Positions 18,716 through 39,736 of a stretch of DNA of 49,249 nucleotides are shown here, one piece after another. The stretch is from positions 1 to 49,249 of IMG/VR virus record IMGVR_UViG_3300017748_000013; one strand, 5' to 3'. Under the pieces are notes generated by a model. It made no database searches. It was not told the origin of the DNA and saw nothing but the letters and a program-made list of their open reading frames with translations. The position numbers were made by a program, and so were the translations under genes. Source of the stretch: a virus. Numbering within the stretch: position 1 is the stretch's first letter; every line of letters begins with the position of its first letter.

Positions 18716-18763
18716 GACAAGTTCTATTGGAGGAGACCATCAACCTTGTCGGGCGAGATCCTA

Positions 18764-18988: not shown

Positions 18989-19284
18989 CAGGAACCGTGA
19001 GTGCGTACCAGCCTGTGTATTTCGTTTCCTTTGCGGTAAAACCGCCGTGTGATATTGCTTATCTTAGATGGCGACACCTGCAACATGTCTGCTATCCCCG
19101 ATCTAGGCACACCCTTCGCTTGTAAATCCAACACCCGCTCCGCAAGTTTTATGTCAATCAATTTACTAGTGGGTTTCTTCTTAACGTCCTGCGGTAGTGA
19201 CCCGTTCCGACTTTTCTTATTCTTCCATAGCTCCTTCACTTTCTCCTGCGCTTGTATTGCTTGCAGAAACATCCTGCTCATCAT
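18988..19284 (-). CDS. Small HTH DNA-binding protein, putative regulator
   Basis: The 98-aa protein has a basic N-terminal part (KVKELWKNKKSRNG) and a helix-turn-helix in residues about 48-83: LAERVLDLQAKGVPRSGIAD followed by MLQVSPSKISNITRRFYRK, the pattern of resolvase or Trp-repressor-like HTHs with a recognition helix SPSKISNITR. The first start overlaps the end of the primase-helicase gene by 68 bp; a GTG (Val16) lies within the overlap, so the true N-terminus is uncertain. It is a candidate for the factor that reads the palindromes or GGAACATT repeats of this genome, but nothing links them directly. Confidence 0.6.
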   Translation of the reverse strand: MMSRMFLQAIQAQEKVKELWKNKKSRNGSLPQDVKKKPTSKLIDIKLAERVLDLQAKGVPRSGIADMLQVSPSKISNITRRFYRKGNEIHRLVRTHGS

Positions 19285-22078
19285 CTCCTCCGATTTTCAT
19301 TTTTACTATCAGTACATGCTGGGCATCAGTCCTAAACTGTGTGCCCTTGGTCAAACGCATTTTCCCGCGCTTGGCCCCCATCTTTTTAATTAGGTCGTTA
19401 ACAAACGAGCTATAGTTCACCTGCTGTGCACCACACCACACCTTGAGCGGTTTTGGCGCGAGGTAAACCTGCTGTAGGTCTGTCTCGTATCGCGCCACAA
19501 GTTTCCCCTTCGGTAGCGCATCTGGTATGACCAATGAGTCCAGCCCGTTTGCCTGCTTACGCAAGTCATCGGTGCTTTTTATCATCAGTATGTTGTTGAA
19601 GTTTTCATTCAAGTATTCGTTTAGTGTTTGCCTGACTGATACTCCCATGTTGTTAACCGAGTCCATGTTGTGTTTTAAGAGGCTGATAGCCCATCTAAAC
19701 AACGCTTTCGTGTCGTATTCTATGAGACCCAACTGCTTCGCAATTATCGCTCCGGTCAATGTGCAAGCAACCCCCGCAGACCAAAACCTGTTCTCAGACG
19801 TTAGCCCTGCCTCTGTGTCTACACGCTGCTGTACTTCTTTCAGTTTGACCTTTACTTCATCGAGGTTCTGCATGACGTGCTGTATGAATATGATTCCAGC
19901 GTGCCCGTAGTTAGCCTCTACCGCTTCATCAAACAAATCAGTGTCACGCTTCTCCGCAGTGCTGCCGAACACCTTTTGAGCAGGCCACTCCATCATGCGT
20001 TGGGCCTCTGCTTTCGGTGCTTGTTTTTCCAGTGCAATGCGCTCTATAACGCTAGCGTTACCTGTAGTAACCGTAAGGAACTTCCAAGGCTCCCCGCGCA
20101 CCCGTTCAAGATTAGACCCGCCTGACATACGCCCACGCTGCTGCCCCGAAGATAGCTGGTAGGCTAAATTACTGAGCTTTTCACTCTTGTGGTTAGTCAG
20201 TTCGTCCACGTAGAACGGCAGATTGTGCAGCACCTCTGCACGATTAAACTTCATAGCGTCCGTGTCGTTTTCTTCGACCATTAGAGCTTTGTCAAACCCC
20301 CACACCGAAGCTGCTACGCGCATGGCTGCGGTCTTACCACACCCGCTAATCTCACTATGGAGATGTAACGCACAAGCGTTTTGTGGGAAGAAGTGCATGA
20401 GAGGTGAACCGAATGCGGTGCAAACCACATACTGGTGCATAGCTAGATCAGATCGGGTTGTGTAGAAGTTAGCCATCGACTTCCATCCGTCTAGTGTGCC
20501 TTTCGGCTCAAATCTGGCTATTAGTGACGCGGTGGGTGTTGATGGGGGGTTGTATTTTATTTTGTCGGCACGTATTTCCTTATCACCTACCACAAACGCC
20601 GAACATTTTTCATCTACCCAACCAAACTGGCGGTGTGCAACATCCGCTGTAGTGGATGCTTGCAACTCATTTACCCAAGTAGTCATATACTGTATTAGAT
20701 CCTCTGGTCTTGTGACTGCAACGCCCTGCATGGACATTGTTTTTCTAAACTCTTCACGAGATGTTACCGCCGTGAGCGGCATCGTAAATTCTCTCACACC
20801 GTCCTTGGGTAAGTGTAGCCTGCACACCACTGACTCACCTGCTTCTATATCTACGAGTCGTTTGGTGATGTATAGATCATTGTGGTAGATAGCTCTTTCG
20901 TCTATCTCACCGTCCGACCCAACGCTACGGACATAGATCCCACCACTTGCCCCTCGAAAGTACGGGCGTGGATAACTTGGGATAACATGTTCTGACAAAG
21001 TAGTCTCTTTGCCAACTGTAGTATCAGAGAAAAGAGTATTTGGATCAGGTGTTGCAGGTGTTGCAGGAGCAAACCTAGCGCCAAGAGATATAGGTGATTT
21101 GATCTTGCCCCAGTTCGGGCAGTGAATGCAGACATCAGGACGCAGTTCATCAAACGTACCACAACGATACGGCCCTTGAATGAGGTCTAATTTCTGCTGG
21201 GTAAGCTCTGGAGTATATTCGGCGTGGTCTTGTGAAATGTTGTGTGCGTGCCGGTCTGCATTCTCGCAGTATTTGACTATCGAAAGCCCTGCCCTCCACA
21301 AAGGTTCTTCTGTGCCTTCTTGGTGAAGCACGATGCTACGTAGTTGCTCACACCCTTTACCCGCCTGCGTCTTGGCTAAGATATTTTTGAAGCTGAAGAT
21401 CCTATCCTTCGGCGGCTCGTATATCGCTTCCGCTATTTTAGGAACTGGTATCAGATTAACGCCGAGCTTATCTGCGAGAAAATCGAAATCAACGGCGGGT
21501 GCATCCTGTAACAGCTTTACAGGAGTAGGGGTATCGAACTTGTAGTTATGTGTACCTAATATGCGTAGCACTCTTGCCGCATCCGCAGGCACTGCTGTAT
21601 CTATCTGAAACTTATGTTCCGCACACAGCGCCTTAAATTTGTCTGCAACGGGCTTCCAATCAGTGACGCTGACGCTATCAGTAAAACTCCAATAGGTATG
21701 TATGCCGCCACCAGAGTCCAACAACATGGGCTTTGGTAGCTCTAACACGCTGCAAAACCGCTTTAACTCACGCAGGGCATGAGCTTTATTTGTGTGCGGT
21801 TTGTCCTCTCCAACATCAATATCAAGGAACAGAGCTTTGATATGCGAAGCATCTGCTGCCTTACGAGTACCTTCTTCTTTGAACGTACTTAATGCGAAAT
21901 AAGCATCCCAACCTTGCTTGTCGTACTCCGTCGCCTGCGCTGCTAACTCGTCTATGTCCTCAAATGACAGTGTTCGTGTGTATCTATTGAGTTCGGGGTT
22001 ATTGCACCAGAGAACGTATACTCCTTGTCTAGGCAGAATCTTCCGCAAGAAAATTCTTGTATCCATAATTGCACCCAT
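19217..22078 (-). CDS. Replicative primase-helicase (AEP primase plus DUF927-type ATPase)
   Basis: The 953-aa protein combines priming and unwinding at the fork. Residues about 60-190 match archaeo-eukaryotic primases: acidic pair LDID (85-88), DSGGGIHTYW with His127, and LRILGTHNYK (171-180). Cysteines at 306, 317 and 320 (CIHC) may bind zinc. The C-terminal half is a DUF927/VirE-like ATPase with Walker A HSEISGCGKT (574-583) and Walker B PFYVDE (621-626). No separate DnaB-type helicase is present, so this is the likely replicative helicase. The ATG lies four bases from a palindrome copy and lacks a clear Shine-Dalgarno sequence; Met5 is an alternative start. The acidic C-terminus may contact partners. 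Confidence 0.82.
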   Translation of the reverse strand: MGAIMDTRIFLRKILPRQGVYVLWCNNPELNRYTRTLSFEDIDELAAQATEYDKQGWDAYFALSTFKEEGTRKAADASHIKALFLDIDVGEDKPHTNKAHALRELKRFCSVLELPKPMLLDSGGGIHTYWSFTDSVSVTDWKPVADKFKALCAEHKFQIDTAVPADAARVLRILGTHNYKFDTPTPVKLLQDAPAVDFDFLADKLGVNLIPVPKIAEAIYEPPKDRIFSFKNILAKTQAGKGCEQLRSIVLHQEGTEEPLWRAGLSIVKYCENADRHAHNISQDHAEYTPELTQQKLDLIQGPYRCGTFDELRPDVCIHCPNWGKIKSPISLGARFAPATPATPDPNTLFSDTTVGKETTLSEHVIPSYPRPYFRGASGGIYVRSVGSDGEIDERAIYHNDLYITKRLVDIEAGESVVCRLHLPKDGVREFTMPLTAVTSREEFRKTMSMQGVAVTRPEDLIQYMTTWVNELQASTTADVAHRQFGWVDEKCSAFVVGDKEIRADKIKYNPPSTPTASLIARFEPKGTLDGWKSMANFYTTRSDLAMHQYVVCTAFGSPLMHFFPQNACALHLHSEISGCGKTAAMRVAASVWGFDKALMVEENDTDAMKFNRAEVLHNLPFYVDELTNHKSEKLSNLAYQLSSGQQRGRMSGGSNLERVRGEPWKFLTVTTGNASVIERIALEKQAPKAEAQRMMEWPAQKVFGSTAEKRDTDLFDEAVEANYGHAGIIFIQHVMQNLDEVKVKLKEVQQRVDTEAGLTSENRFWSAGVACTLTGAIIAKQLGLIEYDTKALFRWAISLLKHNMDSVNNMGVSVRQTLNEYLNENFNNILMIKSTDDLRKQANGLDSLVIPDALPKGKLVARYETDLQQVYLAPKPLKVWCGAQQVNYSSFVNDLIKKMGAKRGKMRLTKGTQFRTDAQHVLIVKMKIGGDDEQDVSASNTSAGESEGAMEE

Positions 22079-22182: not shown

Positions 22183-22923
22183 TCAGTCGTCCCAATCTTC
22201 AATCACAGAACTAAGGTCATCATCGTCTGTGGGTGCAGGAGCAGACTTTTTGACAACCTTCTTCGGTTCTTGTGAAGCTGGAGCTTCTTCCTCAACAGAA
22301 TTAAAAATGTCATCGGAGTCATCGTCTTCATCTAACTCGACAACGGGTGCAGTGGTATCACTAAACGGGTTATCAGGTTCTGCTACGAACCCACCGTCAA
22401 CAACACCAAAGGGTGAACGTGATTGCATTGGTTTATATTCAATCACCTGTACGCCGTTAAGACGTAGACTAACGCCAGTACCACTCAGATTGTACGGCAC
22501 AAAAGTAAACGCAAGGTTCACGATGCTGCCGGTAGTCAACTGAAAGTCTTCTGGTAACTTATTATTCTTAGCGTCAACTTGCAGTGGAGGCGTCGTCTTG
22601 TCTGTACCATACGCCCCTTTCAGTTTAGCCTTACCCAAGTACCTACCATCTTCCTGCTTCTTGAATGGTAGTGGGAACTTGTCAGGCCAACCGTCCTCCT
22701 TCTTCTTGGTGTAAGCCGCCTTCATTGCTTTGTACAGCGTCTTTGCTTCTGGCTCAGTCATCAAAAACGATACGGTGTATTCGGCACCGTCGTCCAACGC
22801 GCTGCATTTCACAGAGCCGCCCTTACCACCGTTAGCTCGGTTATCGAACTTATAGGTGGTATCCAGTTTTGGGTACATCGCTTCTACGTTAGCGATCTGG
22901 TAGTACATATATTCTTCAGCCAT
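22183..22923 (-). CDS. Single-stranded DNA-binding protein with acidic tail (gp2.5/DUF2815-like)
   Basis: The 246-aa protein has a mixed beta-rich body (residues 1-165, including GKGGSVKCSALDDG and VNLAFTFVPYNLSGTGVSLR), then a long acidic, Pro-rich linker and a terminal DDDDLSSVIEDWDD. A body followed by an acidic tail ending in an aromatic-acidic motif is the design of phage ssDNA-binding proteins such as T7 gp2.5, in which the tail recruits replication partners. It lies directly upstream of the primase-helicase. A good ribosome binding site (AGGAGA, six bases before ATG) fixes the start, which overlaps the previous gene by eight bases. Confidence 0.72.
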   Translation of the reverse strand: MAEEYMYYQIANVEAMYPKLDTTYKFDNRANGGKGGSVKCSALDDGAEYTVSFLMTEPEAKTLYKAMKAAYTKKKEDGWPDKFPLPFKKQEDGRYLGKAKLKGAYGTDKTTPPLQVDAKNNKLPEDFQLTTGSIVNLAFTFVPYNLSGTGVSLRLNGVQVIEYKPMQSRSPFGVVDGGFVAEPDNPFSDTTAPVVELDEDDDSDDIFNSVEEEAPASQEPKKVVKKSAPAPTDDDDLSSVIEDWDD

Positions 22924-24260: not shown

Positions 24261-25796
24261 TTATGCAAGTATTTCTTTGTATAAATCAATAATTTTTGTG
24301 TGTGTGTCTATCTTATTATCTAGTAATGAGTAAACACGCTTTTCGATGTGCGATCCCTGCAACTGCACAACTGTGCACTTGTGATCTTGCCCCGCTCTGT
24401 GCACACGCGCATTGGCCTGTGCATACGTTTCGACTGAGCTTGTTGGCCCCCACCATACCACAGTATTTGCAGCGGTCAGTGTAACTCCATGCGCTGCGGC
24501 TTGGGGTTGAATCACTAAGACTCTGGGGGCATCCGAGGTTTGGAATGCTTTGAATATATCAGTGCGTTGCGAAGCAGAAACAGCACCGCTAATTACTTCA
24601 GTAGGGATACCGTCTTTACGTAGCTTATCGGCAAGCAGCTTAATCGTGTGTTTGAACGGAACGAACACCAGCACTTTCTTACTCGACTCATCTATAACCT
24701 CACGTAACACTTTGTATCGGTGCTTGATGTCGAACTCCAATGTCTCGCCGCCATCTGTATAGACCGCACCAGAACTTATTTGCAGGAGCTTGTTCATGTT
24801 TACGGCTGCGGTATTGGTGGTAATCTCCTCACCAGCCGCCTGCATAATCATTTTGTCTTTCAGTTCTTTGTAGTATTTCTGCTGCTGCCGAGTCAACTCA
24901 ACCTCTCGTTTGGTATATACGATCTCAGGCAGGTCGAGGCATTCTTCTTTTGTAAACCGAATCGCAGGCTGTAATGCTTTGAAGACCGTTTCAGTAGCGT
25001 CAGGCTTGGGTATCCACTTAAAGTTGGTCACCTTGTACATGACCATATCTCTGAACGACCCAAAGAACCGAGGCACGGATTTGGGATTAATGAGTTTTGC
25101 TAGGCCATAGGCATCGACGGGACTTTGAGCGGCTGGTGTACCTGTTAACATCCAAAGCCATTTGTCGGAGCCAAGCAATCTGTTCAGTGTCTTCCATCGC
25201 TTCGTCTGTGCGTTCTTGTAGTGAGTTGCCTCATCAACAATTATCAGATCGAACCCACCGTTTGCTACAGCTTCCGCCACAATCTCTACTCCGTCATAAT
25301 TAATTATGACGAACTTGGCATCTCCACCAACTATTTCTTCACGTTTCTTAGCAGAACCGTAGGCAATATCTACGGTACGGTGCATCGCAAAGGTAAACAG
25401 ATCTTCTTTCCATGCAGAATCCATGATCGACAACGGGCAGATGATAAGCACCCGATTGATCTTACCTTGGTTCATTAAAAAATCTGCTGCCCATATCGCA
25501 CTGGCTGTCTTGCCAGTGCCCTGTTCGTTAAAACAAAAGGCTCTCTTGTTGAGCGTGAGAAAAGATGAAGTGGTCTTTTGGTGGGCAAACGGTTTGTGCT
25601 TACCCGTCCACTGATACTTACCTTCGATAGGCGACGGTGCCTTGATACCAAGATTCTTCAGCACATGCGTTTCATCAATACCCCAATTAACCACTACCTT
25701 GTTATCAGGTAGTGCTTTACTTTTTGGTATGACCTGCGTGACTTTCTCTTGATTGCGGAGCCTGAGTAATAAGGCTTTGTTGTCTATGACTCTCAC
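24261..25796 (-). CDS. SNF2/DEAD-like superfamily 2 helicase
   Basis: The 511-aa protein carries the SF2 motifs in order: Walker A EQGTGKT (91-97), motif Ia VLIICPLSIMDSAW, motif II DEATH (188-192), motif III LTGTPAAQ (218-225), motif V HGVTLTAANTVVWWG, and motif VI QANARVHRAGQ (460-470). This is the SNF2-related phage helicase type used in replication, recombination or fork remodelling. The start is GTG in TAGTG, overlapping the preceding stop by one base. No nuclease domain is fused to it. The gene lies between the alpha-CTD-like gene and the coiled-coil gene. Confidence 0.88.
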   Translation of the reverse strand: MRVIDNKALLLRLRNQEKVTQVIPKSKALPDNKVVVNWGIDETHVLKNLGIKAPSPIEGKYQWTGKHKPFAHQKTTSSFLTLNKRAFCFNEQGTGKTASAIWAADFLMNQGKINRVLIICPLSIMDSAWKEDLFTFAMHRTVDIAYGSAKKREEIVGGDAKFVIINYDGVEIVAEAVANGGFDLIIVDEATHYKNAQTKRWKTLNRLLGSDKWLWMLTGTPAAQSPVDAYGLAKLINPKSVPRFFGSFRDMVMYKVTNFKWIPKPDATETVFKALQPAIRFTKEECLDLPEIVYTKREVELTRQQQKYYKELKDKMIMQAAGEEITTNTAAVNMNKLLQISSGAVYTDGGETLEFDIKHRYKVLREVIDESSKKVLVFVPFKHTIKLLADKLRKDGIPTEVISGAVSASQRTDIFKAFQTSDAPRVLVIQPQAAAHGVTLTAANTVVWWGPTSSVETYAQANARVHRAGQDHKCTVVQLQGSHIEKRVYSLLDNKIDTHTKIIDLYKEILA

Positions 25797-27401: not shown

Positions 27402-27619
27402 TCTTCGTCATCCTCATCATGCACCTGTTCAAGACGTGCTTTGTAGTTGGCCCAGAATATGTCATCACTAAGATTAAATCTGTCATCTACCTGCACTATG
27501 TCAAACCGCAGCTTGGGAAACCTTCTGACGAATCTTTCTTTGGCATCGTAAGCAGCTTCGATGTGGGTGTACTTCCCGTCCATAAGCGGAGTGCCTGTAA
27601 ACAAGATAACGTAGCTCAT
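27398..27619 (-). CDS. Small early protein downstream of DNA polymerase, function unknown
   Basis: The start is ATG 27619, overlapping the polymerase stop (TGATG) with GGAGA upstream; the two TTG codons before it are unlikely starts. The 73-aa product begins with a strand (SYVILFTGTPL), has a helical middle (HIEAAYDAKERFVRRFPKLR), and ends acidic (VHDEDDED). It has no catalytic motif. Its place between polymerase and exonuclease genes suggests an accessory replication factor. Confidence 0.5.
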   Translation of the reverse strand: MSYVILFTGTPLMDGKYTHIEAAYDAKERFVRRFPKLRFDIVQVDDRFNLSDDIFWANYKARLEQVHDEDDED

Positions 27620-29445
27620 CAACAATCTCCGTATGCTTTAGCCACACCACTCTCGCAGTCCAACGGCAAACCATCTGCCCATGTAGGAACACGGCGCATA
27701 CACGCTTCAATGTACGCTTGCCCTTCATCAATCTCGTCTTCTGGTACACATGCTACAACAGAATCATGCACTGTCAATACTGGACGATACTTTTTAGCTA
27801 TATCTAACATCTGTTCTGCAATGATACAACGAGCTAATGCCTGACACACGTTCTCAATAATTTTGCCACCGTATATCTTGGTTCGGCCTCGCCGTGTTTT
27901 GTATGTGTAGTCAGTGCCTTCTTCGTTAGAACTTCCCTCCAGCTCCTCGTATCGCATAAGTAGACCAGAGGGTAACTTGATAGCCTGTGCATCACCGACA
28001 ATCTCTATAGCCCCATCTCTACCAAACGGTAGCGACTCCCCGTTGTTCATATACTTTAGTGCATAGTTGGCGTCTGCCCACACGTTAGATATTTTCCAGT
28101 TTGTATCACGATAGATACTTATGATACGCCTTGCTTCATACAACTCTATGTCTGTGCCAAACGATTTCAACTGTGCTTGGAACTTGACTGCACCCATGCC
28201 GTACCCAGCACCGAGGATCGTAGTCTTGCCAACAAACCTCTGCTCTGGTGTTACCTCATGCTCACCCACGCCGTAGATACGCGAAGCCATTTTTATATAA
28301 ACGTCTTCTTTATCACTAAACGCTTGAGTCAAATCATCCTGCTCTGCAAACCACGCCAGCACTCTTGCTTCTATCTGTGATGAGTCGCAGTCCACTAGCA
28401 TGTACCCATCTGGTGCAATGATGCTGCGCTTGAGTTTCTTCGCATTCGGCCCACGGCTAGGTAGATTCTGTACGTTAATCTTGTCATCACCGCCCCATCT
28501 ACCAGTGTGTGCTGCGTAGTATTTTGTTGGAACCGGGAAAGAACCACGTTTTGCTATTTCTATAAACCTCTCAGTGCGTGTTTCTTCCAAGGTACTTTTC
28601 AAGCCTAAACGTGCACTAACAAGTGCCTGCACATGGGAGTTCTCATGCTCTACTAAGCACTTGAATTCCTCATCTGTTTTTGCGAATGCGTAGGTATCTT
28701 CGCCAGTGGTAGGGCTGACCTTCATCGGGGGTTCTACACCTAGACTTCTCAGTGCATCGGCAAACTTCGGGTTGCTCATCAGAGTTTCTTTATCGACTCC
28801 AGCTTCTGATAACAACTTATCTTTAGACTGTTTGATGTCGTACAGATTATCCTCAAGTAAACACGAATCTAGTTCTAACAGCGGATGTATAAACATACGC
28901 AGTGTGCAGTCGATAACCCGTAATTCTTTCTTAGGAAACCCTGCGTTGAGAAAGATGTTAAACAGTTTGTAGGTAAGCTCCACATCATTGATGCAGTAGT
29001 CACCGTAGCTGTCTAGCTCGTCATCGGTGAAGTCTTCTCGACGTTTGCCCAACGCATCTAAGACTTCTGTCCCTTTCTCTCCAATGTTGTAGCGTTCAGC
29101 TAACGCTTTGAGGCTTCCACTAGCCTCCACCCCATGTAGAGAACGGGCAATGCAAAGAGTGTCAGCCCAAACCCTAGGACGAATATCAAAGAGCCAAGAT
29201 AATATAGCACCGTCGAACATACAGTTATGGGCGAGTACCATACTGTCGGCCCAGTTAAATTCGTGAAAATACTCTTTAAGTTCTTCATGCGTTCCACTCG
29301 CCCACTCCGTAGCACCATTGTTTACTTTTACTCCTACACCCACGACCTCAAATCTGGGGTCGCGGATATATTCTTCTGTTGTTAACTTACTAAGAGAAAA
29401 CTTCTTATCGTAGTATGTCTCAAAGTCCAAGGTGATAAGATCCAC
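27619..29445 (-). CDS. polA: DNA polymerase, family A, with 3'-5' exonuclease
   Basis: The 608-aa replicative polymerase shows both active sites. Exonuclease motifs are LDFET (Asp7, Glu9), AHNCMFD (Asp78) and YCINDVEL (Tyr150, Asp154). Polymerase motif A is VDCDSSQIEAR (351-361; catalytic Asp354), motif B spans Arg403, Lys407, Tyr415 and Gly416 with the canonical spacing, and motif C is HD at 560-561. There is no 5'-3' exonuclease domain. It starts with GTG in TAGTG, coupled to the small gene before it. It should act with the primase-helicase and ssDNA-binding protein; processivity presumably depends on a host factor, since no clamp gene is seen. Confidence 0.93.
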   Translation of the reverse strand: MDLITLDFETYYDKKFSLSKLTTEEYIRDPRFEVVGVGVKVNNGATEWASGTHEELKEYFHEFNWADSMVLAHNCMFDGAILSWLFDIRPRVWADTLCIARSLHGVEASGSLKALAERYNIGEKGTEVLDALGKRREDFTDDELDSYGDYCINDVELTYKLFNIFLNAGFPKKELRVIDCTLRMFIHPLLELDSCLLEDNLYDIKQSKDKLLSEAGVDKETLMSNPKFADALRSLGVEPPMKVSPTTGEDTYAFAKTDEEFKCLVEHENSHVQALVSARLGLKSTLEETRTERFIEIAKRGSFPVPTKYYAAHTGRWGGDDKINVQNLPSRGPNAKKLKRSIIAPDGYMLVDCDSSQIEARVLAWFAEQDDLTQAFSDKEDVYIKMASRIYGVGEHEVTPEQRFVGKTTILGAGYGMGAVKFQAQLKSFGTDIELYEARRIISIYRDTNWKISNVWADANYALKYMNNGESLPFGRDGAIEIVGDAQAIKLPSGLLMRYEELEGSSNEEGTDYTYKTRRGRTKIYGGKIIENVCQALARCIIAEQMLDIAKKYRPVLTVHDSVVACVPEDEIDEGQAYIEACMRRVPTWADGLPLDCESGVAKAYGDC

Positions 29446-31779: not shown

Positions 31780-33033
31780 TTACAGTTTGCTGCTGTCTAA
31801 GTGGACAGCGCTGCCTACACTTGGTTGTGTGCGCTTGTTATCCAAGATCAACCACAGTAAGGGACTGTTCCATCGCCCCCAGCTACCACCCAAGTATCCG
31901 TCCGTGAACACGATAACTGCTTGTGGGTTGATGCTGTTCTCTTGAATGTATCGAGTCACACAAGTGACATCCGTACCACCGCCGCCTTCTGGCTTGGTTG
32001 ACTTGCGTAAGTCTGCGATCTCATGCTGCTCGTAGACTTCTTCACGGCACACCTGCGTATCCCAGTAAAGCACTCGTATCTTCTTAGGCTTCACTGTCTC
32101 ACAGATGTGTGCGACCTCAGACAGAAACACGGTCAACTCTCTCTGCCCAATAGACCCTGACGTATCGCACGCAAGCACCAGTTCATCAACGGTTTCGGTG
32201 ATGCCGCTCGGCATGTACACACCTGCCCCGATGTACCTTCGGTTTGGACGTTTCCATGTGGAGTAGTCACTGCCTTTGCATGTGTCGTTAACGAACTCAC
32301 GCAATACATCTCGCCAGTTAACCTGCGGAGCCAGCAGTTCGTCTATTGACCTGTTACCACCTGACCCCATCTTGCCTGCGGCGAGCACACCCTGACGTAG
32401 TGCTTCGTCAATCTCGCGCTCGTTCTTGCGCTGTTCCTCTGCGGGTATCTCTTGTGCACCTTCCCAGTCGTGCTCGTCAAAGCCTTGTGGTAACTCGTTA
32501 CTAGGTTGACCATTTGTTGGGGGGTCGTCTGGGCTTGATACGTTCCCAGTACCTTTACCTTCTTCTTGCAGTGTTTTGAAGATAGCAGCCGAGTCCATCC
32601 ACCCGCTCTTGATCCTGTACTTCTCGTCGTACAATCCAATGATCTTGCCCTTATCATCGACGGGCATGGTGGCAAATTTGTCTGACTTGTTCTCATCCAC
32701 CAACTTGCCGTTGATGTTGTAGTCACAAGCAGCATTAGCCAGTGGCCCGTCCTTGTCATACATCCACCGCCATGTGGTCAGGTGTTTGTATATCTTGTGA
32801 TACAACTCATGCAGCAGAACAAAGCGTAGCTCTGCATCGGTCAACGATTGTGCAAACGCACGCCCGAACTTTATGTCGATGCCGTTTGTCTGAGCGGTTG
32901 GTATGTCTTCAACCACTTCGATCTTACCCAGCATCAGCGCACCAGCAGCCCACATGTATCGGTCATGCCGCATGATGTCCACAACACACTTCTGTAGGCG
33001 CTGTTCTTCCGTTAGTTTTGTTGCTAGTAACAC
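31780..33033 (-). CDS. VWA-like protein with N-terminal metallopeptidase-like domain (DUF2201 type)
   Basis: The 417-aa protein has two domains. The N-terminal one has HELYH (75-79) and AACDYNING (Asp104), the zinc-peptidase-like pattern of DUF2201 proteins. The C-terminal VWA-like domain has a complete metal-ion-dependent adhesion site: DTSGS (290-294), GGGTD (Thr354, Asp355) and FTDG (Asp378). A charged linker joins them. Together with the MoxR-type ATPase gene 267 bases upstream it forms the classic AAA+/VWA pair, in which the VWA protein directs the ATPase to metal-dependent remodelling targets. The start is GTG with GGAGGG upstream. Confidence 0.85.
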   Translation of the reverse strand: MLLATKLTEEQRLQKCVVDIMRHDRYMWAAGALMLGKIEVVEDIPTAQTNGIDIKFGRAFAQSLTDAELRFVLLHELYHKIYKHLTTWRWMYDKDGPLANAACDYNINGKLVDENKSDKFATMPVDDKGKIIGLYDEKYRIKSGWMDSAAIFKTLQEEGKGTGNVSSPDDPPTNGQPSNELPQGFDEHDWEGAQEIPAEEQRKNEREIDEALRQGVLAAGKMGSGGNRSIDELLAPQVNWRDVLREFVNDTCKGSDYSTWKRPNRRYIGAGVYMPSGITETVDELVLACDTSGSIGQRELTVFLSEVAHICETVKPKKIRVLYWDTQVCREEVYEQHEIADLRKSTKPEGGGGTDVTCVTRYIQENSINPQAVIVFTDGYLGGSWGRWNSPLLWLILDNKRTQPSVGSAVHLDSSKL

Positions 33034-33034
33034 G

Positions 33035-33295
33035 TTACTCGACCCTCCATATTTGTATTGCTGAGTTTTCTACGTTGCGCTTTACCGTTACTTTTTGATT
33101 AGCCCTTTTTGCTATGGCAGTTAGGGAGCTAGCGCGATTGCTTATCCCTCTGCCCCTCTTATTTTTTCTGTCCAAATCAAATACAACGGAGTCGCCTACT
33201 TCCCACATCTTCACAAGATCATATAAATCTTGATGTTTCTTACGGGCACCAACACCACGTTGAGGTATCGGTACGTTCTTTATTATTTCTATCAT
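33035..33295 (-). CDS. Small basic protein between AAA+ and VWA genes
   Basis: The start is set at ATG 33295, just after the ATPase stop, with AAGGTG upstream; longer forms would run back into the ATPase gene. The 86-aa product (IPQRGVGARKKHQDLYDLVK, WEVGDSVVFDLDRKNKRGRG) looks like a small basic nucleic-acid-binding or beta-barrel protein and ends QIWRVE. Its place inside the module suggests a dedicated adaptor, but no known family is recognised. Confidence 0.55.
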   Translation of the reverse strand: MIEIIKNVPIPQRGVGARKKHQDLYDLVKMWEVGDSVVFDLDRKNKRGRGISNRASSLTAIAKRANQKVTVKRNVENSAIQIWRVE

Positions 33296-33299
33296 CTGC

Positions 33300-34412
33300 T
33301 TACACCTTGTCCGCTGCGAACATGTATGAATTCTGCATGGCCCACTCGCCATACTTGGCATCTTGCACCACGGCCTCGCGTCGTTTGTGGTCGAACTTCT
33401 CAGCACGAATACCGTTGACGAACAGACCTTGTGCTTCCTTATCAAGACGCGATAGGTACGTCATCCATGCCGGAACCCAAGACCTTTCGATAGAGCCAAG
33501 CGTTCTGAACACCACCATGCACATAGCCGATGGAGTCTTGGGTATCATCGCCGTGTCTGGATTCTGTTTGATCGACTCCAACGTCGGCAGGTCGTTTGCC
33601 AGCTTGACGAATGCCATCATGTCCATCGCGGCCTGCTCACCGATGATGCCCATGAGCAAACCCGTTATGACATGGGGGGTTAGCTGTTCGCGTTTCTTGA
33701 TGATGTGACTCGCCTTCTCCAATGATCGGGGGGTCACAAATGCAGTCCGTTCCTTGGCACTGGGGTGGTAGATGTATGGGTTGTCGCGTGGGTCAGGCAC
33801 CTCATCGAATGTCTGAAACAACTGCGGGGTCTCTTTGACCCAACCCAGCAGGATAGGATCGACACCGTTGTTCAACCCCCACTCTATCCACTCCATGTTA
33901 GTGGGCTTGCGTACTCGCATCCGCACTATCCGATTGCACGCATGTGCTGGTAACAAGTCACCCACACCTTCGGCACCTAGGTTAGTCGTCGCAAAGACAA
34001 TTGAGTCGGGGTGCAGCTTGCGTCCTGCTAGCATCCGTTCTTGTATCAAACCCAGCAGTGCCAGCTTGACCGATGGGTTGGCTTTACCGAACTCGTCAAG
34101 ACACAACACAACTGGCTCATTGAGATGCAGCCCCAGTTCTTCGTTGGTTGCGAATGTCACGGATGACACCTCATCGTTGAGCTTGATGTTGGGGATCATC
34201 AGATCACCCAAGTCCTTGGTAGTGCAGTCGAACAAGATATGTCGGTGCTTCGGGAACTTCTGCATTAACATCTTTAGGATAGATGTCTTGCCTGTACCCA
34301 TGTGCCCCTCGGCTAAGTACACAATCCCACCGTCCTGTTCTCTACCAGTTTCGGCAATGGCTTCTGCGGATTCGTCCAGCGATACCGCGTACATGTTTAG
34401 AGCTTGGCTCAT
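33300..34412 (-). CDS. MoxR/CobS-type AAA+ ATPase
   Basis: The 370-aa protein has Walker A EGHMGTGKT (35-43), Walker B VLCLDE (102-107), sensor 1 FATTN (140-144) and the helix-2-insert region of MoxR-type AAA+ proteins, then a helical C-terminal part. Such ATPases form hexamers that work with VWA partners to mature or remodel protein complexes. The partner gene lies just downstream and a DUF3150 gene just upstream. AAGGAGA precedes ATG. What it remodels here (host polymerase, capsid, replisome) is unknown. Confidence 0.85.
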   Translation of the reverse strand: MSQALNMYAVSLDESAEAIAETGREQDGGIVYLAEGHMGTGKTSILKMLMQKFPKHRHILFDCTTKDLGDLMIPNIKLNDEVSSVTFATNEELGLHLNEPVVLCLDEFGKANPSVKLALLGLIQERMLAGRKLHPDSIVFATTNLGAEGVGDLLPAHACNRIVRMRVRKPTNMEWIEWGLNNGVDPILLGWVKETPQLFQTFDEVPDPRDNPYIYHPSAKERTAFVTPRSLEKASHIIKKREQLTPHVITGLLMGIIGEQAAMDMMAFVKLANDLPTLESIKQNPDTAMIPKTPSAMCMVVFRTLGSIERSWVPAWMTYLSRLDKEAQGLFVNGIRAEKFDHKRREAVVQDAKYGEWAMQNSYMFAADKV

Positions 34413-34433
34413 TATGGTCTCCTTAGTTTCTTG

Positions 34434-35384
34434 TTAGATTTCCAATGATGGAAGGTTATCAATGACGTTCTGTGTCATGGATTTGGTTTGCGCTCTCAGG
34501 TACGGACTGTCCCTGAGTGCTTCGGGTGTGACGCGCAGCAGTTCATTTTCTAGCCTGTCACACAACGCGCTGATCTGAGTGTTACCGATGACGTTACATG
34601 ACCTAACCAGTTTGGTTGCGTCGAGTACGTTACTGATAAGCGTGTTACGGAAGATGGCCTGTTCCCCGTCAGGCGTTTCACCTAGCCGATCAACCATCTT
34701 TCCTAGATAGTCTTTCAGTTCACCCAGCACCCTGTTCATGCCAGTGGCGTAGGTTTCTTGGATGAATTTGTCGTAGCCTTCTTTAGCGACCTGCAATGCC
34801 TGAGTACCTATGTCCACTCTGAAATCGTCACCTGAAGGTACGGGATGTGTCAGCACTTCCAGTGAGAACTTATCCTGTAGTACCGATCTGTCTGGGTACT
34901 CGTGAGCACGAAACATATCGCCAAGCACTGCTTGCTGCTCGGACACATAGAAGTCATACGAGTCTAGGAACTCATGGACTTTCTTATCGAACATCTGCTT
35001 TTTGGCAGTCACTTTGTTTATGTAGTCTGGGTACACTGCTTGAGGGCAGAGACGTGGGCCGCGATCTATCCACGGCATGGTAGTGCGATAGTGAATGTGG
35101 TTGCGGGTCTCACCGATGATTGACTTGATGCTTGCGAGTAACTTGTTACCAGCGAACAGATTCTTGGTGTATGTGCCCGCCTGAGACTCGGCATTGTTGT
35201 CGTGAGCGACCTGCTGCGAGATGTCCTCGTCAGTCACCTTACCGTCCCAACAAGACGTTTTTAATTCGACCAGCACCGCAGCACTGGAGATAGAGGGTAC
35301 GTTGATCTCAGAGAGACTCGGTAGCTCTGTCTGTTCTAACATGTTAGAACCTGTTGGTTCAGAGATGTCGTGTAGGTTTTCCAT
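34434..35384 (-). CDS. DUF3150-like partner of the AAA+/VWA module
   Basis: The 316-aa helical protein contains VLVELKTSCWDGKVTDEDIS, KNLFAGNKLLASIKSIIGET, then RNHIHYRTTMPWIDRGPRL, which resembles DUF3150, a family found beside CobS/MoxR ATPases and VWA proteins in conjugative elements and phages. The start shares its A with the previous stop (TAATG) and has AAAGGAAAA upstream. Codons 12-17 are made by a palindrome copy, so Gly-Ser-Asn-Met-Leu-Glu is dictated by the DNA site. The family assignment is from memory and should be treated as probable. Confidence 0.65.
   Translation of the reverse strand: MENLHDISEPTGSNMLEQTELPSLSEINVPSISSAAVLVELKTSCWDGKVTDEDISQQVAHDNNAESQAGTYTKNLFAGNKLLASIKSIIGETRNHIHYRTTMPWIDRGPRLCPQAVYPDYINKVTAKKQMFDKKVHEFLDSYDFYVSEQQAVLGDMFRAHEYPDRSVLQDKFSLEVLTHPVPSGDDFRVDIGTQALQVAKEGYDKFIQETYATGMNRVLGELKDYLGKMVDRLGETPDGEQAIFRNTLISNVLDATKLVRSCNVIGNTQISALCDRLENELLRVTPEALRDSPYLRAQTKSMTQNVIDNLPSLEI
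35333..35350. promoter_or_regulatory. Palindrome copy 3, inside the start of the DUF3150-like gene
   Basis: This perfect 18-bp palindrome is the only copy within an accepted coding region, beginning 35 bases after the A of the start codon. Exact retention inside a reading frame argues for selection on the DNA or RNA site and not just intergenic drift. Confidence 0.75.
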
Positions 35385-35767: not shown

Positions 35768-36023
35768 CAGGTATGACCTGATACGCACCTTTGTTGTAGG
35801 GGATGGACACAGTGAACAGATTGTTCTTCTGTCCGTCCCGGTTCTTTCTGTCACTTGCATCGTAACCTGTTAGCGCGTAGTGGCTTACTGGCCCCGTGTG
35901 CGACGGGTACTTCGCACGAAAATCGGCAGAGCGTTGTTGCTCGGTGGGGGTACTGCAAACCATCGGTTTGAAAGGTCTTGCAGGCCGTCGAGGTTTACGC
36001 ACTGGTTTGTATCTTCTTGGCAT
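35739..36023 (-). CDS. First gene of the main early operon, basic 94-aa protein
   Basis: The product is very basic at its N-terminus (MPRRYKPVRKPRRPARPFKP) and then polar, with SHYALTGYDASDRKNRDGQK and a short C-terminal strand. It has the best early ribosome binding site (AGAGGAGA before ATG) and lies 88 bases downstream of the near-consensus early promoter, so it should be made first and strongly. A basic first early protein often targets host nucleic acids or polymerase, but its target here is unknown. Confidence 0.6.
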   Translation of the reverse strand: MPRRYKPVRKPRRPARPFKPMVCSTPTEQQRSADFRAKYPSHTGPVSHYALTGYDASDRKNRDGQKNNLFTVSIPYNKGAYQVIPDGDIEHIGR

Positions 36024-36038
36024 ATTGTCTCCTCTGTA

Positions 36039-36056
36039 GTTCTAACATGTTAGAAC
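36039..36056. promoter_or_regulatory. Palindrome copy 4, in the leader of the main early operon
   Basis: A perfect 18-bp palindrome lies 15 bases upstream of the first ATG of the operon, adjoining its ribosome binding site and about 55-70 bases downstream of the predicted transcription start. A protein bound here would act as a roadblock. It shares 24 identical bases (palindrome plus TTGTTA) with copy 5. Confidence 0.75.
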
Positions 36057-36069
36057 TTGTTACTGTAAG

Positions 36070-36085
36070 GTCGCTTGAGGGCGAC
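36070..36085 (-). other. Small hairpin in early leader
   Basis: GTCGC and GCGAC form a 5-bp stem around a 6-base loop in the 5' leader between the early promoter and the palindrome. It may influence mRNA stability; alone it is weak. Confidence 0.35.
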
Positions 36086-36117
36086 GAATCAATTGTGTAT
36101 CTGTCACACACAAAGAC

Positions 36118-36146
36118 ATTATCGCATATTCGTCGTCTTGTGTCAA
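36118..36146 (-). promoter_or_regulatory. Early sigma70-type promoter driving the leftward block
   Basis: Read on the minus strand: TTGACA (36146-36141), a 17-bp spacer, then GATAAT (36123-36118). The spacer ends TGC, so there is also an extended -10 TG. This is nearly consensus and should fire immediately with host RNA polymerase. Predicted start is near 36111, giving a leader of about 88 bases to the ATG at 36023. Confidence 0.85.
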
Positions 36147-36373
36147 GTATTATGATTAGGTGTTTTCTAATGGTTAGAGGTGTAATGTTCTATAATGTTC
36201 CAGAATGTTCCCTCGTATAGGTGGGCAAGTCCTTGATTTACCTAGAATGTTCCAATGTGCCTTTTTTAGGGAAATTGAATGGGTGGCGTAGAAGGGAGGA
36301 AGGAGGACGGAACATTAGGTAATTACGTGGTAACTTGTTTGGTGTGTGTTTTTACTAAGTCAAAATCTACCCC

Positions 36374-36415
36374 TATACATATATATTTCTAAAAAAGGAA
36401 CATTATACATATATA
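36374..36415. repeat. AT-rich direct repeats (possible DNA-unwinding element)
   Basis: TATACATATATA occurs at 36374-36385 and again at 36404-36415, exactly 30 bp apart, in a stretch of very high AT content inside the GGAACATT cluster. Such easily melted DNA next to repeated binding sites is expected at an origin; promoters are the alternative, since TATAAT-like hexamers are embedded. Confidence 0.6.
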
Positions 36416-36430
36416 GTCTTAAACGAATAT

Positions 36431-36460
36431 GCAGATACCGCCAGATAACGCCAGATACAA
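36431..36460. repeat. Three tandem 10-bp repeats (CCAGATAACG type)
   Basis: GCAGATACCG, CCAGATAACG and CCAGATACAA follow each other without gaps. The 10-bp period again matches a helical turn, and the core CAGATA is invariant. They lie between the AT-rich repeats and the right GGAACATT array and form a second type of binding-site array. Confidence 0.75.
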
Positions 36461-36577
36461 CCATACACCATCTGTCATTTGTTCCTTTTTGCCCAAAAAA
36501 AAGGGAACATTAGGGGAACATTATGGAACATTTGGAACATTACCCCCACGTAAAAAGGAACATTGCTCAACTGCCAT

Positions 36578-36595
36578 GTTCTAACATGTTAGAAC
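36578..36595. promoter_or_regulatory. Palindrome copy 5, edge of the repeat cluster
   Basis: A perfect 18-bp palindrome at the right edge of the GGAACATT array, in non-coding DNA with no supported gene start near. With copy 4 it brackets the control region. Confidence 0.75.
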
Positions 36596-36663
36596 TTGTT
36601 AACTTATGGTTTCTTCTGTCACGCAACGCTACGTTAGGAACTGGCCTCACAAGGTGGGGGCGT

Positions 36664-36696
36664 AAAAAAACCCCGACCAGCAAATGCTGGCCGAGG
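36664..36696 (-). terminator. Strong intrinsic terminator after the 174-aa early gene
   Basis: On the minus strand CCTCGGCCAGC and GCTGGTCGGGG form an 11-bp stem (two G-U pairs) with a 4-base loop, followed by TTTTTTT. It lies 19 bases past the stop of the gene at 36715-37239, insulating that transcript from the repeat cluster. Confidence 0.9.
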
Positions 36697-36714
36697 TTGG
36701 TTGGTGGTTGGTAG

Positions 36715-37239
36715 TTAGGACTTGATTGCTTGGCGTAGAGCCTTGATCGCGTCCATTACCGGCTTGACGTTTTCAATGTCTGGCGTCTCGGCGTTTTCTA
36801 TCCGTTTCTCCATCGCCGTGCATTGTTCAGTTAGATAGGTCGCTAGCGTTTTCTTCGTGCGTTTCGCAACCTCGCCAGCTCTGGCTTTCTCCACTGCCAC
36901 TACTGCCTGCTTCCATCGGGTGCAGTATTGGGTGACACTTTTCTGAATGGACTTGCGTTCTGCCTTTTCATCATCACTTAGCGCGGTAGTCGGTGTGGCG
37001 ATAAGCCTAACCGCTTTCTCCCCTCGCCCTCGAATGATAGCAGCGCGATGCTTTGCCCAGTCCAGTTTGTTAGTCGCGTCCGTTGCCTGTAGTTTCAGCA
37101 AATCTTTCTCGCTAGTGGGGAGCCAGATGGACTTACCACCCGCATCAAGATAGGCGTTAACCGCTTTCTCTTTTGATGCTTCACTCTCGCCGAATTGTCC
37201 AGTTGCCGCGTACAGATCTTTCATTGTTATGTTAGTCAT
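36715..37239 (-). CDS. Isolated early protein, 174 aa, own promoter and terminator, function unknown
   Basis: The product is helical and highly charged: LQATDATNKLDWAKHRAAII, RGRGEKAVRLIATP, then a long coiled-coil-like C-terminal half (EKAERKSIQKSVTQYCTRWK, AMEKRIENAETPDIENV). No catalytic motif is seen. It is transcribed alone: a candidate promoter lies at 37292-37320, GGAG precedes ATG, and a strong terminator follows. A separate monocistronic unit beside the control region suggests a regulator, replication initiator or host-takeover protein, but I cannot say which. Confidence 0.55.
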   Translation of the reverse strand: MTNITMKDLYAATGQFGESEASKEKAVNAYLDAGGKSIWLPTSEKDLLKLQATDATNKLDWAKHRAAIIRGRGEKAVRLIATPTTALSDDEKAERKSIQKSVTQYCTRWKQAVVAVEKARAGEVAKRTKKTLATYLTEQCTAMEKRIENAETPDIENVKPVMDAIKALRQAIKS

Positions 37240-37291
37240 AAGAATGACTCCTTTTTAGTTAAGTTATGCCGCCATCGCTGGCGACCAATAC

Positions 37292-37320: not shown

Positions 37321-37340
37321 GAATGGCATTAAATACCAAC

Positions 37341-37356: not shown

Positions 37357-37590
37357 CCTAACTAAACACCACTCCCCCCCGACCCCCCGCGCACAGCTTG
37401 TGACTCCTAGCAGTTCTCTATATTACTAATCTGCACGAACTTTCAGCATTTTTCTGGGTTTTGGTCTTGACCCCCCTCCACACAGAACCCCCCACCCTAA
37501 ATTTTAAGTACCTAGCAAAAAAATTTTTGTTATATCTAGTAGTCTTTGGTGTATATTCGCGCCAACGGCTATCAGCCAGCGGTAAAATCT
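37357..37590. promoter_or_regulatory. Early/late intergenic region: C-runs, A-tract, possible rightward promoter
   Basis: About 230 bases with no supported gene. Runs of C (37374-37380 and 37383-37388, and again around 37470-37497) would put G-runs on the minus strand able to form a quadruplex. AAAAAAATTTTT (37517-37528) is an A-tract likely to bend DNA. A weak rightward promoter could be TTGTGA (37398-37403), 17 bp, TATTAC (37421-37426). The late genes must start from here, and the terminase recognition (pac/cos) site may also lie here; neither is proven. Confidence 0.45.
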
Positions 37591-38187
37591 ATGACATTAC
37601 TTATAGAACCTGAGATCGGCGTTCCTTTTTCCGACGACTTTAGCTTTGTCGATTTGAAAGAACGCGCAGCCGCTGCTTGTAGCACAGCACTAGAACTCTC
37701 TAAGCACGGGTTAGATCTAACACCAAGTAAAGAAGATGAAGATACCGCTGCGCGACTTGCTATTGCTTATGCTGATGACCCTGAAAAAACTTCTAAGAAA
37801 GTTACAGCAAAGAAAGCGGCGACGCTTACCCCTGCCTCTCTTGTTCTGACAAACAACATACTGCAAGAGTTTGGGCATTCTGTTGCAGAAAGTGCAACAC
37901 AGATCAGGCATCTCGTAACCAATAAGCTATTACTAGAGTCAGAGAACGAAGATCCGCGCATTCGTATGCGTGCGCTGGAGCTGTTAGGTAAGATCTCAGA
38001 CGTAGGTTTGTTTGCTGAGAAGTCGGAAGTGACAATCACACATCAATCGACAGATGACTTACGTAACAAGTTACGTGATAAACTGGAAAAATTGATTACG
38101 CCTGACGCAGACATCGTAGATGGGGAGTACACCGACGTGGCATTCGATGTAGATAGTGAGCTTGGCATAGATAGTGACCAACATTAG
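37591..38187 (+). CDS. Terminase small subunit (probable)
   Basis: A start at ATG 37591 is preferred; the frame is open back to TTG/GTG at 37546-37549 but without a ribosome binding site. The 198-aa product has a helical middle (SLVLTNNILQEFGHSVAESA) and a segment PRIRMRALELLGKISDVGLF then AEKSEVTITHQSTDDL, which resembles the C-terminal region of phage small terminases that recognise the packaging site. It precedes and overlaps the large terminase by 14 bases, the usual order. No HTH is obvious by eye, hence moderate confidence. Confidence 0.7.
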   Translation: MTLLIEPEIGVPFSDDFSFVDLKERAAAACSTALELSKHGLDLTPSKEDEDTAARLAIAYADDPEKTSKKVTAKKAATLTPASLVLTNNILQEFGHSVAESATQIRHLVTNKLLLESENEDPRIRMRALELLGKISDVGLFAEKSEVTITHQSTDDLRNKLRDKLEKLITPDADIVDGEYTDVAFDVDSELGIDSDQH

Positions 38188-39736
38188 TCACAAGATTCCT
38201 GACTTTAGCGAAGACGAAGTAGAGCAGATGCTCAATAACCTTGATTCGTTTACGGACGAAGAGGTTGTTGAGATAAATCGCATCGTTGACGAGCTAGACG
38301 AGCGCAGAATTAACAAAGAAGCGTACCTAGACCTCATAGAGTTCTGCAAACGTATGCAGCCAGACTACATTGTGGGTAAGCATCACCGCATTTTGGCTGA
38401 CTTACTCATGGATATTGAGCGAGGTAGGAAGGATCGCATCTGTGTGAACATCCCACCACGCCACGGTAAGTCCCAACTTGTTTCTATTTTCTTCCCAGCG
38501 TGGTTTTTAGGGCGAAACCCGAACAAAAAAGTGATGATGGTGTCGCATACTACTGATTTGGCAGTAGATTTTGGTAGAAAAGTGCGAAATCTCATCTCTA
38601 CGGACGCATATCAGGCCATTTTTCCTACCGTACAGCTTGCAAGTGACTCAAAATCAGCCGGTAGATGGAATACAAACACAGGTGGCGAGTATTATGCGTG
38701 TGGTATTGGCTCTGCTCTTGCTGGTCGCGGCGCTGATTTACTCTTGGTAGATGATCCGCACTCTGAACAGGACGTAATTAACGGTAATTTTACTGTTTTT
38801 GAGAAAGCGTACGAGTGGTTTACGTTTGGAGCACGTACTCGTCTGATGCCGGGGGGTCGTGTAGCTATAATTCAGACCCGATGGCACATGGATGACCTCA
38901 CTGGGCGTGTAACACGCGACATGGTGCAGAACGACAGGGCAGATGAGTATGAAGTGGTCGAGTTTCCCGCCATATTAGAGATAGAGGACGAGGAAACAGA
39001 CGACATTGTAGAAAAACCGCTCTGGCCTGAGTTTTTTGACCTAGAGGCGCTGCTGCGGACTAAGGCATCCATGCCGACATTCCAGTGGAACGCGCAGTAT
39101 CAGCAGACACCCACGGCAGAAGAGGCCGCACTGGTCAAACGCGAGTGGTGGCAGACGTGGGATCAGGAAAGTCCGCCCAGTTGTGAGTACATTATTATGT
39201 CGCTGGACGCGGCAGCAGAGAAACATAACCGTGCTGACTACACGGCGCTGACTACATGGGGTGTATTCCTGTACGAGGAGACAGGTGCGTACAATATCAT
39301 TCTGTTAAACAGTATAAAGAAGCGCCTAGAGTTTCCCGAGCTAAAAGACATGGCGATGGAAGAGTATGGTGAGTGGGAACCTGATGCGTTTATCGTAGAA
39401 AAGAAATCATCGGGCACGGCGCTGTACCAAGAGATGAGGCGCATGGGGTTGCCCGTTTCAGAGTATACGCCTCACAGGGGATCAGGTGATAAACTTGCAC
39501 GCCTTAACTCAGTATCTGATATTGTTGCGTCTGGTTTAGTATGGGTTCCTCCCACACGCTGGGCGGAAGAGGTGATCGAAGAGATAGCGGGGTTTCCGTT
39601 TATGAGTCATGATGACTTGGTTGACTCAACGGTCATGGCGCTCATGCGGTTCAGACAAGGTGGATTTATCAGGCTACCAACAGATGAGCCAGAAGAAACA
39701 CGATACTTCAAACGGCGCGGAAGCGGGTTCTACTAG
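38174..39736 (+). CDS. Terminase large subunit
   Basis: The 520-aa packaging motor has an ATPase domain with Walker A PPRHGKSQ (94-101), Walker B LLLVDDP (189-195) and coupling motif IIQTRWH (232-238). The C-terminal RNase H-like nuclease has acidic residues at Asp345 (SLDAAAE), Glu409 (FIVEKKS) and Asp480/481/484 (SHDDLVD). It translocates DNA into the prohead through the portal and cuts the concatemer. The start is GTG 38174, overlapping the small subunit gene. Walker B ends in Asp-Asp instead of Asp-Glu, as in some phage terminases. Confidence 0.95.
   Translation: MTNISHKIPDFSEDEVEQMLNNLDSFTDEEVVEINRIVDELDERRINKEAYLDLIEFCKRMQPDYIVGKHHRILADLLMDIERGRKDRICVNIPPRHGKSQLVSIFFPAWFLGRNPNKKVMMVSHTTDLAVDFGRKVRNLISTDAYQAIFPTVQLASDSKSAGRWNTNTGGEYYACGIGSALAGRGADLLLVDDPHSEQDVINGNFTVFEKAYEWFTFGARTRLMPGGRVAIIQTRWHMDDLTGRVTRDMVQNDRADEYEVVEFPAILEIEDEETDDIVEKPLWPEFFDLEALLRTKASMPTFQWNAQYQQTPTAEEAALVKREWWQTWDQESPPSCEYIIMSLDAAAEKHNRADYTALTTWGVFLYEETGAYNIILLNSIKKRLEFPELKDMAMEEYGEWEPDAFIVEKKSSGTALYQEMRRMGLPVSEYTPHRGSGDKLARLNSVSDIVASGLVWVPPTRWAEEVIEEIAGFPFMSHDDLVDSTVMALMRFRQGGFIRLPTDEPEETRYFKRRGSGFY

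Follow-up and report, generated by a model that had tools for sequence, protein, structure and literature searches.

The locus examined here raises the question of what is served by a short word repeated many times, in two opposed orientations, between two genes of a virus, and which protein would be expected to bind it. The whole stretch of DNA analysed, called the window below (G000 in the set of genomes), is a virus record of 49,249 bases without end repeats. It is probably incomplete, because three relatives are circular, with direct end repeats of 108-127 bases and a length of 62-64 kb. The gap that contains the array is 691 bp long and bounded by two leftward genes (36023 and 36715), and the rightward late block begins about 1 kb beyond the array. 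The following elements were located in and around the gap.

36039..36056: 18-bp palindrome GTTCTAACATGTTAGAAC, left of the array
36118..36146, minus strand: early promoter-like site (consensus match only), TTGACA and GATAAT with a 17-nt spacer and a TG preceding the second hexamer
36184..36261, minus strand: left arm of the array, with exact GGAACATT at 36194, 36204 and 36246
36309..36564, plus strand: right arm of the array, with GGAACATT at 36309, 36397, 36504, 36515, 36525, 36534 and 36557
36374..36393 and 36404..36423: AT-rich direct repeat beginning with TATACATATATA, flanking one iteron
36432..36451: 10-bp tandem repeat CAGATACCGC/CAGATAACGC
36578..36595: 18-bp palindrome GTTCTAACATGTTAGAAC, right of the array
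36669..36698, minus strand: terminator-like hairpin (consensus match), 3' of the 36715-37239 gene, between this gene and the array

The word GGAACATT occurs ten times in exact form within 36194-36564, three times on the minus strand to the left and seven times on the plus strand to the right. Two one-mismatch copies, AGAACATT at 36184 and GGCACATT at 36254, also belong to the left arm on the minus strand. This recount agrees with the preliminary description of the locus, which had reported ten exact and two near copies in 381 bp, the left ones opposite in orientation to the right ones. The chance expectation of about 0.01 given there was likewise reproduced (1.41 ± 1.13 copies in the whole window, i.e. 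about 0.011 per 381 bp). Outside the array, the window holds a single further exact copy, at 42634. The maximum in any 381-bp stretch was 2 in 200 Markov-2 resamplings of the window, and when the 691-bp gap was resampled 300 times, no 8-mer of any sequence exceeded 3 copies, compared with the 10 observed. The spacing of 9-11 bp between neighbouring copies holds inside the clusters (10, 10 and 11, 10, 9 bp) but not elsewhere (8, 23, 42, 55, 88 and 107 bp). The AT-rich direct repeats and the tandem 10-bp repeat mentioned in the same description are those listed above. The AT content of the array is 62%, and its most AT-rich 60 bp, which include the direct repeat at 36374..36423, reach 80%; this repeat is a candidate melting element. 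The value of 80% was reached by 9 of 200 shuffles of the window array, and in only 6 of 16 arrays was the observed AT value reached by at most 10 of 200 shuffles, which were scanned at every third position only, a procedure with a slight bias towards the real arrays.

An early promoter had been placed just to the left of the array, and a consensus match is indeed present there on the minus strand. Its TTGACA (36146) and GATAAT (36118), separated by a 17-nt spacer, agree with the consensus at 11 of 12 positions. On the upstream side, about 40 bp separate this site from the end of the left arm. Promoter-like sites in the region number 2, with a mean of 2.7 in shuffles. The 18-bp palindrome is present six times in the window (22083, 31759, 35333, 36039, 36578 and 37341, the last copy being one base short), and several copies lie directly upstream of early-gene starts. 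Such a dyad occurs 4-16 times per genome in 17 of 18 large genomes (window included), mostly with a sequence of its own in each, and one palindrome type is common to the genomes G004, G010 and G011. Among 144 dyad copies, 88 are intergenic (rough background fraction 0.39) and 109 lie between -60 and 150 relative to an ORF start. The palindrome resembles an operator particular to each phage, which might serve immunity or the control of early genes.

The leftward early genes extend from 36023 down to 19217 and encode a DUF3150-family protein, an AAA ATPase, a DUF2201/VWA-like protein, an endonuclease, PolA, an exonuclease, a helicase, a Gp2.5-like protein and a primase-helicase. The rightward late genes occupy 37546 to the window end, together with the window start to about 19.4 kb. 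The genes that matter for the argument are given below.

19217..22078, minus strand: primase-helicase, 953 aa, the proposed initiator
22183..22923, minus strand: Gp2.5-like ssDNA-binding/annealing protein
24261..25796, minus strand: helicase (phrog_62)
27619..29445, minus strand: family A DNA polymerase with a 3'-5' exonuclease domain
31780..35384, minus strand: conserved early trio adjoining the array
31780..33033, minus strand: DUF2201 metallopeptidase/VWA-like protein (Pfam)
33300..34412, minus strand: AAA ATPase
34434..35384, minus strand: DUF3150-family protein (family matched by 37 of 54 relatives but not by the copy in the window)
37546..38187, plus strand: presumed small terminase, named by position, with no family match
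38174..39736, plus strand: large terminase; the start of the late block spans 37546..39736

The family of the 31780-33033 gene is labelled 'HNH endonuclease' by PHROG 1314, a label that may be wrong, as Pfam gives DUF2201 metallopeptidase and VWA-like. Dense tandem words at 7385-7613 (CCTGAGCCA, 15 copies; CAGAACCTG, 14 copies) lie inside a 1959-aa ORF (2983-8862) and represent a repeat region within a large late protein. A DNA search of a phage collection with 34000-38500 returned no near or isolated relative. On the host side, one of 80 matched genome-contig stretches encodes a relative, at 27% identity, on a 3-kb contig of a Rhodospirillales MAG.

Conservation of the array was evaluated in relatives that had been retrieved by the ATPase gene, independently of the array itself. 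This gave 54 loci, 31 of which hold both flanks, and a word cluster was found at the early/late junction in 30 of the 31 (23 of 24 groups without near copies). A lack of conservation, which the preliminary description had named as evidence against its own reading, is rejected by this unbiased set. In each of the 30 loci, a single switch from minus on the left to plus on the right, relative to the terminase, accounts for 80% or more of the copies, and the sense of the word is identical (GGAAC/GAAC/GGTAC), the sense having been set so that the right half was mostly plus. The detector counted 7-13 copies in 30 of the 31 real loci, and at least 7 in 2 of 620 resampled regions; the single miss (L046, from G009) holds GGTAC-type words in the same layout by eye. 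The 23 ATPase-found loci lacking a flank were kept out of this count. A cluster was present in 11 of them, and 11 of the 12 loci without one hold less than 900 bp past the early gene. In L034, which does not hold both flanks, the arms are reversed, with plus on the left and minus on the right. The word is GGAACATT in the clade of the window and takes other forms in other phages (AGAACATTA, CGAACATTA, GAACTTT, TTGGAACTT, ACGGAACAT, TGGAACAAT, TGGTACA and GGTAACA), and same-strand neighbours are spaced by 8-12 bp in about half of the cases (51 of 105, 18 genomes). In a wider collection the array was present in 98 of 121 loci and in 53 of the 54 with both flanks, counts that are not a fair test because L063-L182 were fetched by the word itself; 51 of the 53 were two-armed (null mean 20, maximum 31). 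Across the array loci measured, the distance from the array to the terminase genes downstream of it is nearly always about 1-2.5 kb; in L177, whose best word falls outside the GAAC type, it is 3.0 kb.

No GAAC-type two-armed array figured among the top-ranking words in the fetched stretches of seven large-terminase relatives (HTVC027P, 023Pt_psg01, DSL-LC04, HTVC023P, Pag-Yong1, ctsTn925 and CRP-901). Other word clusters were seen in some of these phages. In 023Pt_psg01 (L191, 4541-4750), TGGCACA occurs seven times, with copies on both strands, and in Planktothrix phage Pag-Yong1 (L194, 7130-7476), GTATGAC occurs nine times on one strand; both lie upstream of the large terminase and are unlike the word of the window. 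HTVC023P carries TAGGAAA six times. MinM2, Pag-Yong1 and Pra-JY27, recorded from different cyanobacterial hosts, agree in length (65,014) and in their terminase match, and are possibly one phage.

Cumulative GC skew had been proposed as a check on an origin at this place. The minimum, at 37,861, does lie 1.3 kb from the array, but it coincides with a transcription switch and is therefore not independent evidence; the maximum (18,735) also stands at such a switch. GC skew was consequently rejected as origin evidence, since replication is not separable from transcription here. The three circular relatives showed no clean replication terminus in GC skew: past the half-way point the skew falls toward zero in G003, and nothing clear is seen in the other two.

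Four protein families, namely the primase-helicase, PolA, a helicase and the VWA protein, are present in all 18 large records (window included). The primase-helicase is the likely binder of the array words. It consists of a PrimPol domain (residues 1-206), a helicase like those of SaPI Rep and Cch (about 367-810) and a winged helix (about 812-929). The protein matches Pfam PF06048 (E 1.5e-25), its helicase core belongs to the DUF927/Rep-Cch family, and among solved proteins the family profile matches SaPIbov1 Rep (8tch_A, E 1.8e-26) and Cch (5dgk_A, E 4.4e-22). In a full-length model (alignment of 21 sequences, mean pLDDT 80.5, pTM 0.44), residues 367-931 resemble SCCmec Cch (5dgk_B, Z 29.8, 473 aligned, 7.5 Å), residues 369-930 SaPIbov1 Rep (8tch_B, Z 26.7, 442 aligned, 9.1 Å), and residues 1-206 the PrimPol of cyanophage S-2L (Z 19.8, 178 aligned, 2.6 Å). 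When the C-terminal part was folded alone with 83 sequences, the top match of the winged helix was 8tch_A (Z 8.6, 89 residues, 2.5 Å), followed by 5dgk_B (Z 8.4, 83 residues, 2.8 Å), with the next match at 7.6; both top matches are the C-terminal domains of SaPIbov1 Rep and Cch. Foldseek alone gave no match under 0.001 for this domain. On the predicted fold, the protein would carry a C-terminal DNA-binding domain of the SaPIbov1 Rep/Cch type. SaPI-type repeats lie directly downstream of the initiator gene, and the window family departs from this arrangement. In all 14 genomes holding that flank, 0-1 word copies are present within 900 bp downstream of the primase-helicase gene (G018 and G022, in which the gene runs off the contig end, were left out), and in the window the array is 14.1 kb away from the gene, at the early/late junction.

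For 28 phages, word distance was compared with residues 505-930, with residues 1-350 as control, which gave a partial r of 0.37 (permutation p 0.007, 300 permutations), and the reverse test gave r -0.28 (p 0.99); these p values are rough, as Mantel permutations treat phages as exchangeable. By sequence comparison, the word tracks the helicase half of the protein, not the PrimPol half. Among 60-residue windows (100 permutations), 701-760 (r 0.32, p 0.01) and 501-560 (r 0.21, p 0.05) stood out, and one window outside the helicase, 251-310, also scored (r 0.26, p 0.03).

Moreover, a natural swap is found among four phages, in which the word is GGTACA in G009 and G010 and GGAACA in G004 and G011. 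In most genes G010 is nearer to G004 and G011 than to G009, yet it has the GGTACA word in common with G009. In residues 505-810 of the G010 protein, identity to G009 rises to 83-98% and identity to G011 falls to 57-78%, and the informative sites of this block support the word grouping by 41:0:0. Elsewhere in the protein the counts are 2:7:3 (1-350), 0:1:3 (351-504) and 4:1:1 (811-930), and over the nine other gene families that include all four phages the total is 33:64:32. The change concerns the iterons rather than the whole control region, because G010 keeps the palindromic operator type of G004 and G011. The block 505-810 corresponds to the helicase core and lid and ends before the winged helix, so it may not act directly on DNA choice. 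Either this motor block takes part in word choice, or the agreement is a coincidence of one event.

The same comparisons bear on whether the origin is bound by another protein, e.g. DUF3150, the ATPase or VWA, with the primase-helicase loaded secondarily. When 30 gene families were screened, with up to 18 genomes each, VWA ranked first (partial r 0.30, p 0.012) and the primase-helicase second (partial r 0.23, p 0.07), with the remaining families lower and neither signal surviving correction; in addition, DUF3150 (12:4:3) is the only one of the nine families whose sites in the quartet clearly favour the word grouping. However, the quartet sites of VWA oppose this grouping (2:9:4), and DUF3150, the ATPase and VWA are without a DNA-binding family match in Pfam, whereas the primase-helicase is of an origin-binding helicase type. 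Binding by one of these other proteins is therefore regarded as improbable.

Phages that are only distantly related provide a further comparison. A relative of the primase-helicase was found in 19 phage records, from which seven distant loci were scanned (22-26% identity in the helicase part), as well as Pseudomonas phage Rollin and one of four Rhizobium phages; duplicates, short fragments and unfetched phages were left out. Comparable arrays were found near the helicase gene in 5 of the 7 distant loci, one of which, THSA-485A, had already been seen before the scan. Thermoanaerobacterium phage THSA-485A carries 9-10 copies of GGTAACCGA, Faecalibacterium phage FP_Epona 10 copies of AGGTGAAA and Klebsiella phage P12620-1 11 copies of TGAACCAA, in each case starting 6-25 bp after the annotated end of the helicase gene. 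These three resemble the window phage in having a helicase of the same family (22-23% identical in its helicase part) and a short word present 9-11 times, with copies on both strands, and differ from the window family in the position of the array just past the gene and in the more mixed strands. Ruminococcus phage phiRg507T2_3 and MT835606 have a common word, GTAACAA, present seven times in the layout +++----, about 0.2 kb after the gene in the former and 0.7 kb after the matched stretch in the latter. In Roseburia phage Jekyll GTAACAA occurs four times, not above shuffles, and MT837305 has no array in the stretch scanned. Rhizobium phage RHph_TM3_14A, whose primase-helicase is 24% identical, has no obvious array in 16801-20500, and a scan of the whole record found none save a repeat inside an annotated gene; the 24% relative itself (L421, 42239-45322) is annotated there as 'putative integrase protein'. 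In Rollin (27% for the primase-helicase), two overlapping word clusters lie in a stretch without annotated genes, one of AAAAGGTAG, most copies of which form +/- pairs reminiscent of a palindromic operator, and one of TATGCAA (eight copies). The Rollin clusters (L419/L420) occupy the circular record from about position -20 to position 680, before a plus-strand gene block that starts at 1455. Taken together, the window family and the distant phages suggest that such origins are common among phages with DUF927-type helicases and may lie away from the initiator gene, at the early/late junction.

The location of the array also has to be weighed in terms of transcription. It could represent a cooperative operator or enhancer at which a transcription regulator of the phage controls the early/late switch, with replication starting elsewhere. 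Such a role would fit the junction at which the array stands, the divergence of leftward early and rightward late genes from it, and the early promoter-like site about 40 bp from the end of the left arm. On the other hand, the four families present in all 18 large records hold no recognised transcription regulator (other families were partly tested for DNA-binding domains), and a separate phage-specific palindrome already resembles a transcription operator. This palindrome does not follow the iteron type, as G010 has the palindrome of G004 and G011 and the word of G009. The arrays near the helicase gene in five of seven distant loci also argue against a purely transcriptional function, which is considered unlikely. 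That the array is a packaging (pac) site, its multiple copies bound by the small terminase, is very improbable despite its position upstream of the terminase genes, since co-variation between the word and the presumed small terminase is weak (partial r 0.17, p 0.17, 16 genomes), distant phages carry the array near the helicase gene and, to our knowledge, pac sites do not look like an inverted two-armed layout with AT-rich DNA.

The preferred reading, to which a probability of roughly three in four is assigned, is that the array is the replication origin of the phage, that the primase-helicase binds its 8-bp words via the winged helix, and that the helicase block affects word choice. The array is most likely a two-armed, SaPI-like iteron origin at the early/late junction, about 14 kb from the initiator gene. 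Iterons for an initiator had been one of the two proposals of the preliminary description, and they are supported by the junction position, the two-armed layout, the co-divergence with a SaPI Rep/Cch-like helicase and the arrays near such a helicase in distant phages. The 'master switch' proposed alongside is a possible second role, because the left arm ends so close to the early promoter-like site. Initiators often regulate nearby promoters, and by analogy the array may also regulate this site.

In the proposed mechanism, the primase-helicase would recognise the 8-bp words by its C-terminal winged helix, with some influence of the helicase block on the choice of word, and initiator hexamers would load on each of the two opposed arms. 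Because the arms run in opposite directions, a pair of hexamers facing away from one another could form on them. In SaPI-type iteron origins an AT-rich segment lies among the repeats. In the window, the hexamers would melt the candidate AT-rich element, unwind the DNA and move apart, giving a bidirectional start, after which the fused PrimPol domain would prime and the phage family A polymerase would extend. The analysis establishes the array itself, its conserved place and layout, the drift of its word, the predicted fold of the protein and the statistical coupling between word and helicase half, while binding, loading on each arm, melting and the bidirectional start are inferred. A more far-reaching version is possible but doubtful. 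According to it, one polypeptide would recognise the words, melt and unwind the DNA as two opposed MCM-like rings and prime both strands, within a code that turns over fast, and the origin would be read at least partly by the motor block 505-810, not only by the winged helix. Phages would thereby switch origin type by swapping this block.

The closest known systems include SaPIbov1 Rep with its iteron origin, from a pathogenicity island of Staphylococcus aureus. SaPIbov1 Rep and the window primase-helicase have in common the initiator helicase fold and sequence family and a similar C-terminal domain, and the SaPIbov1 origin is likewise an array of short words specific to the element. SaPIbov1 Rep is reported to bind via its C-terminal domain and as two hexamers (PMC7581432). 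Unlike SaPIbov1 Rep, the window helicase is fused to a PrimPol domain; moreover, SaPIbov1 is a satellite island, whereas the window family consists of phages with circular relatives of 62-64 kb. The closest solved fold to the window helicase is that of SCCmec Cch (5dgk_B), a protein that is described as containing DUF927 and as related to SaPIbov1 Rep (PMC7581432; PMC7145576). For SCC elements, no origin is reported to have been identified previously, and one is proposed for the unrelated Cch2 (PMC7581432). Judging from its length of 603 aa, the Cch chain would be too short for a fused PrimPol like that of the window protein. The alpha protein of satellite phage P4 combines primase, helicase and origin binding in one protein and acts with short origin repeats; its helicase is of a different family from that of the window.

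None of the papers listed by the literature searches describes the origin of this phage family. The presented results propose, at the level of sequence, an origin together with its corresponding initiator in a large family of phages for which metagenomes are almost the sole source. Furthermore, the natural series of word and protein pairs would make the recognition code of SaPI Rep-type helicases readable and testable.
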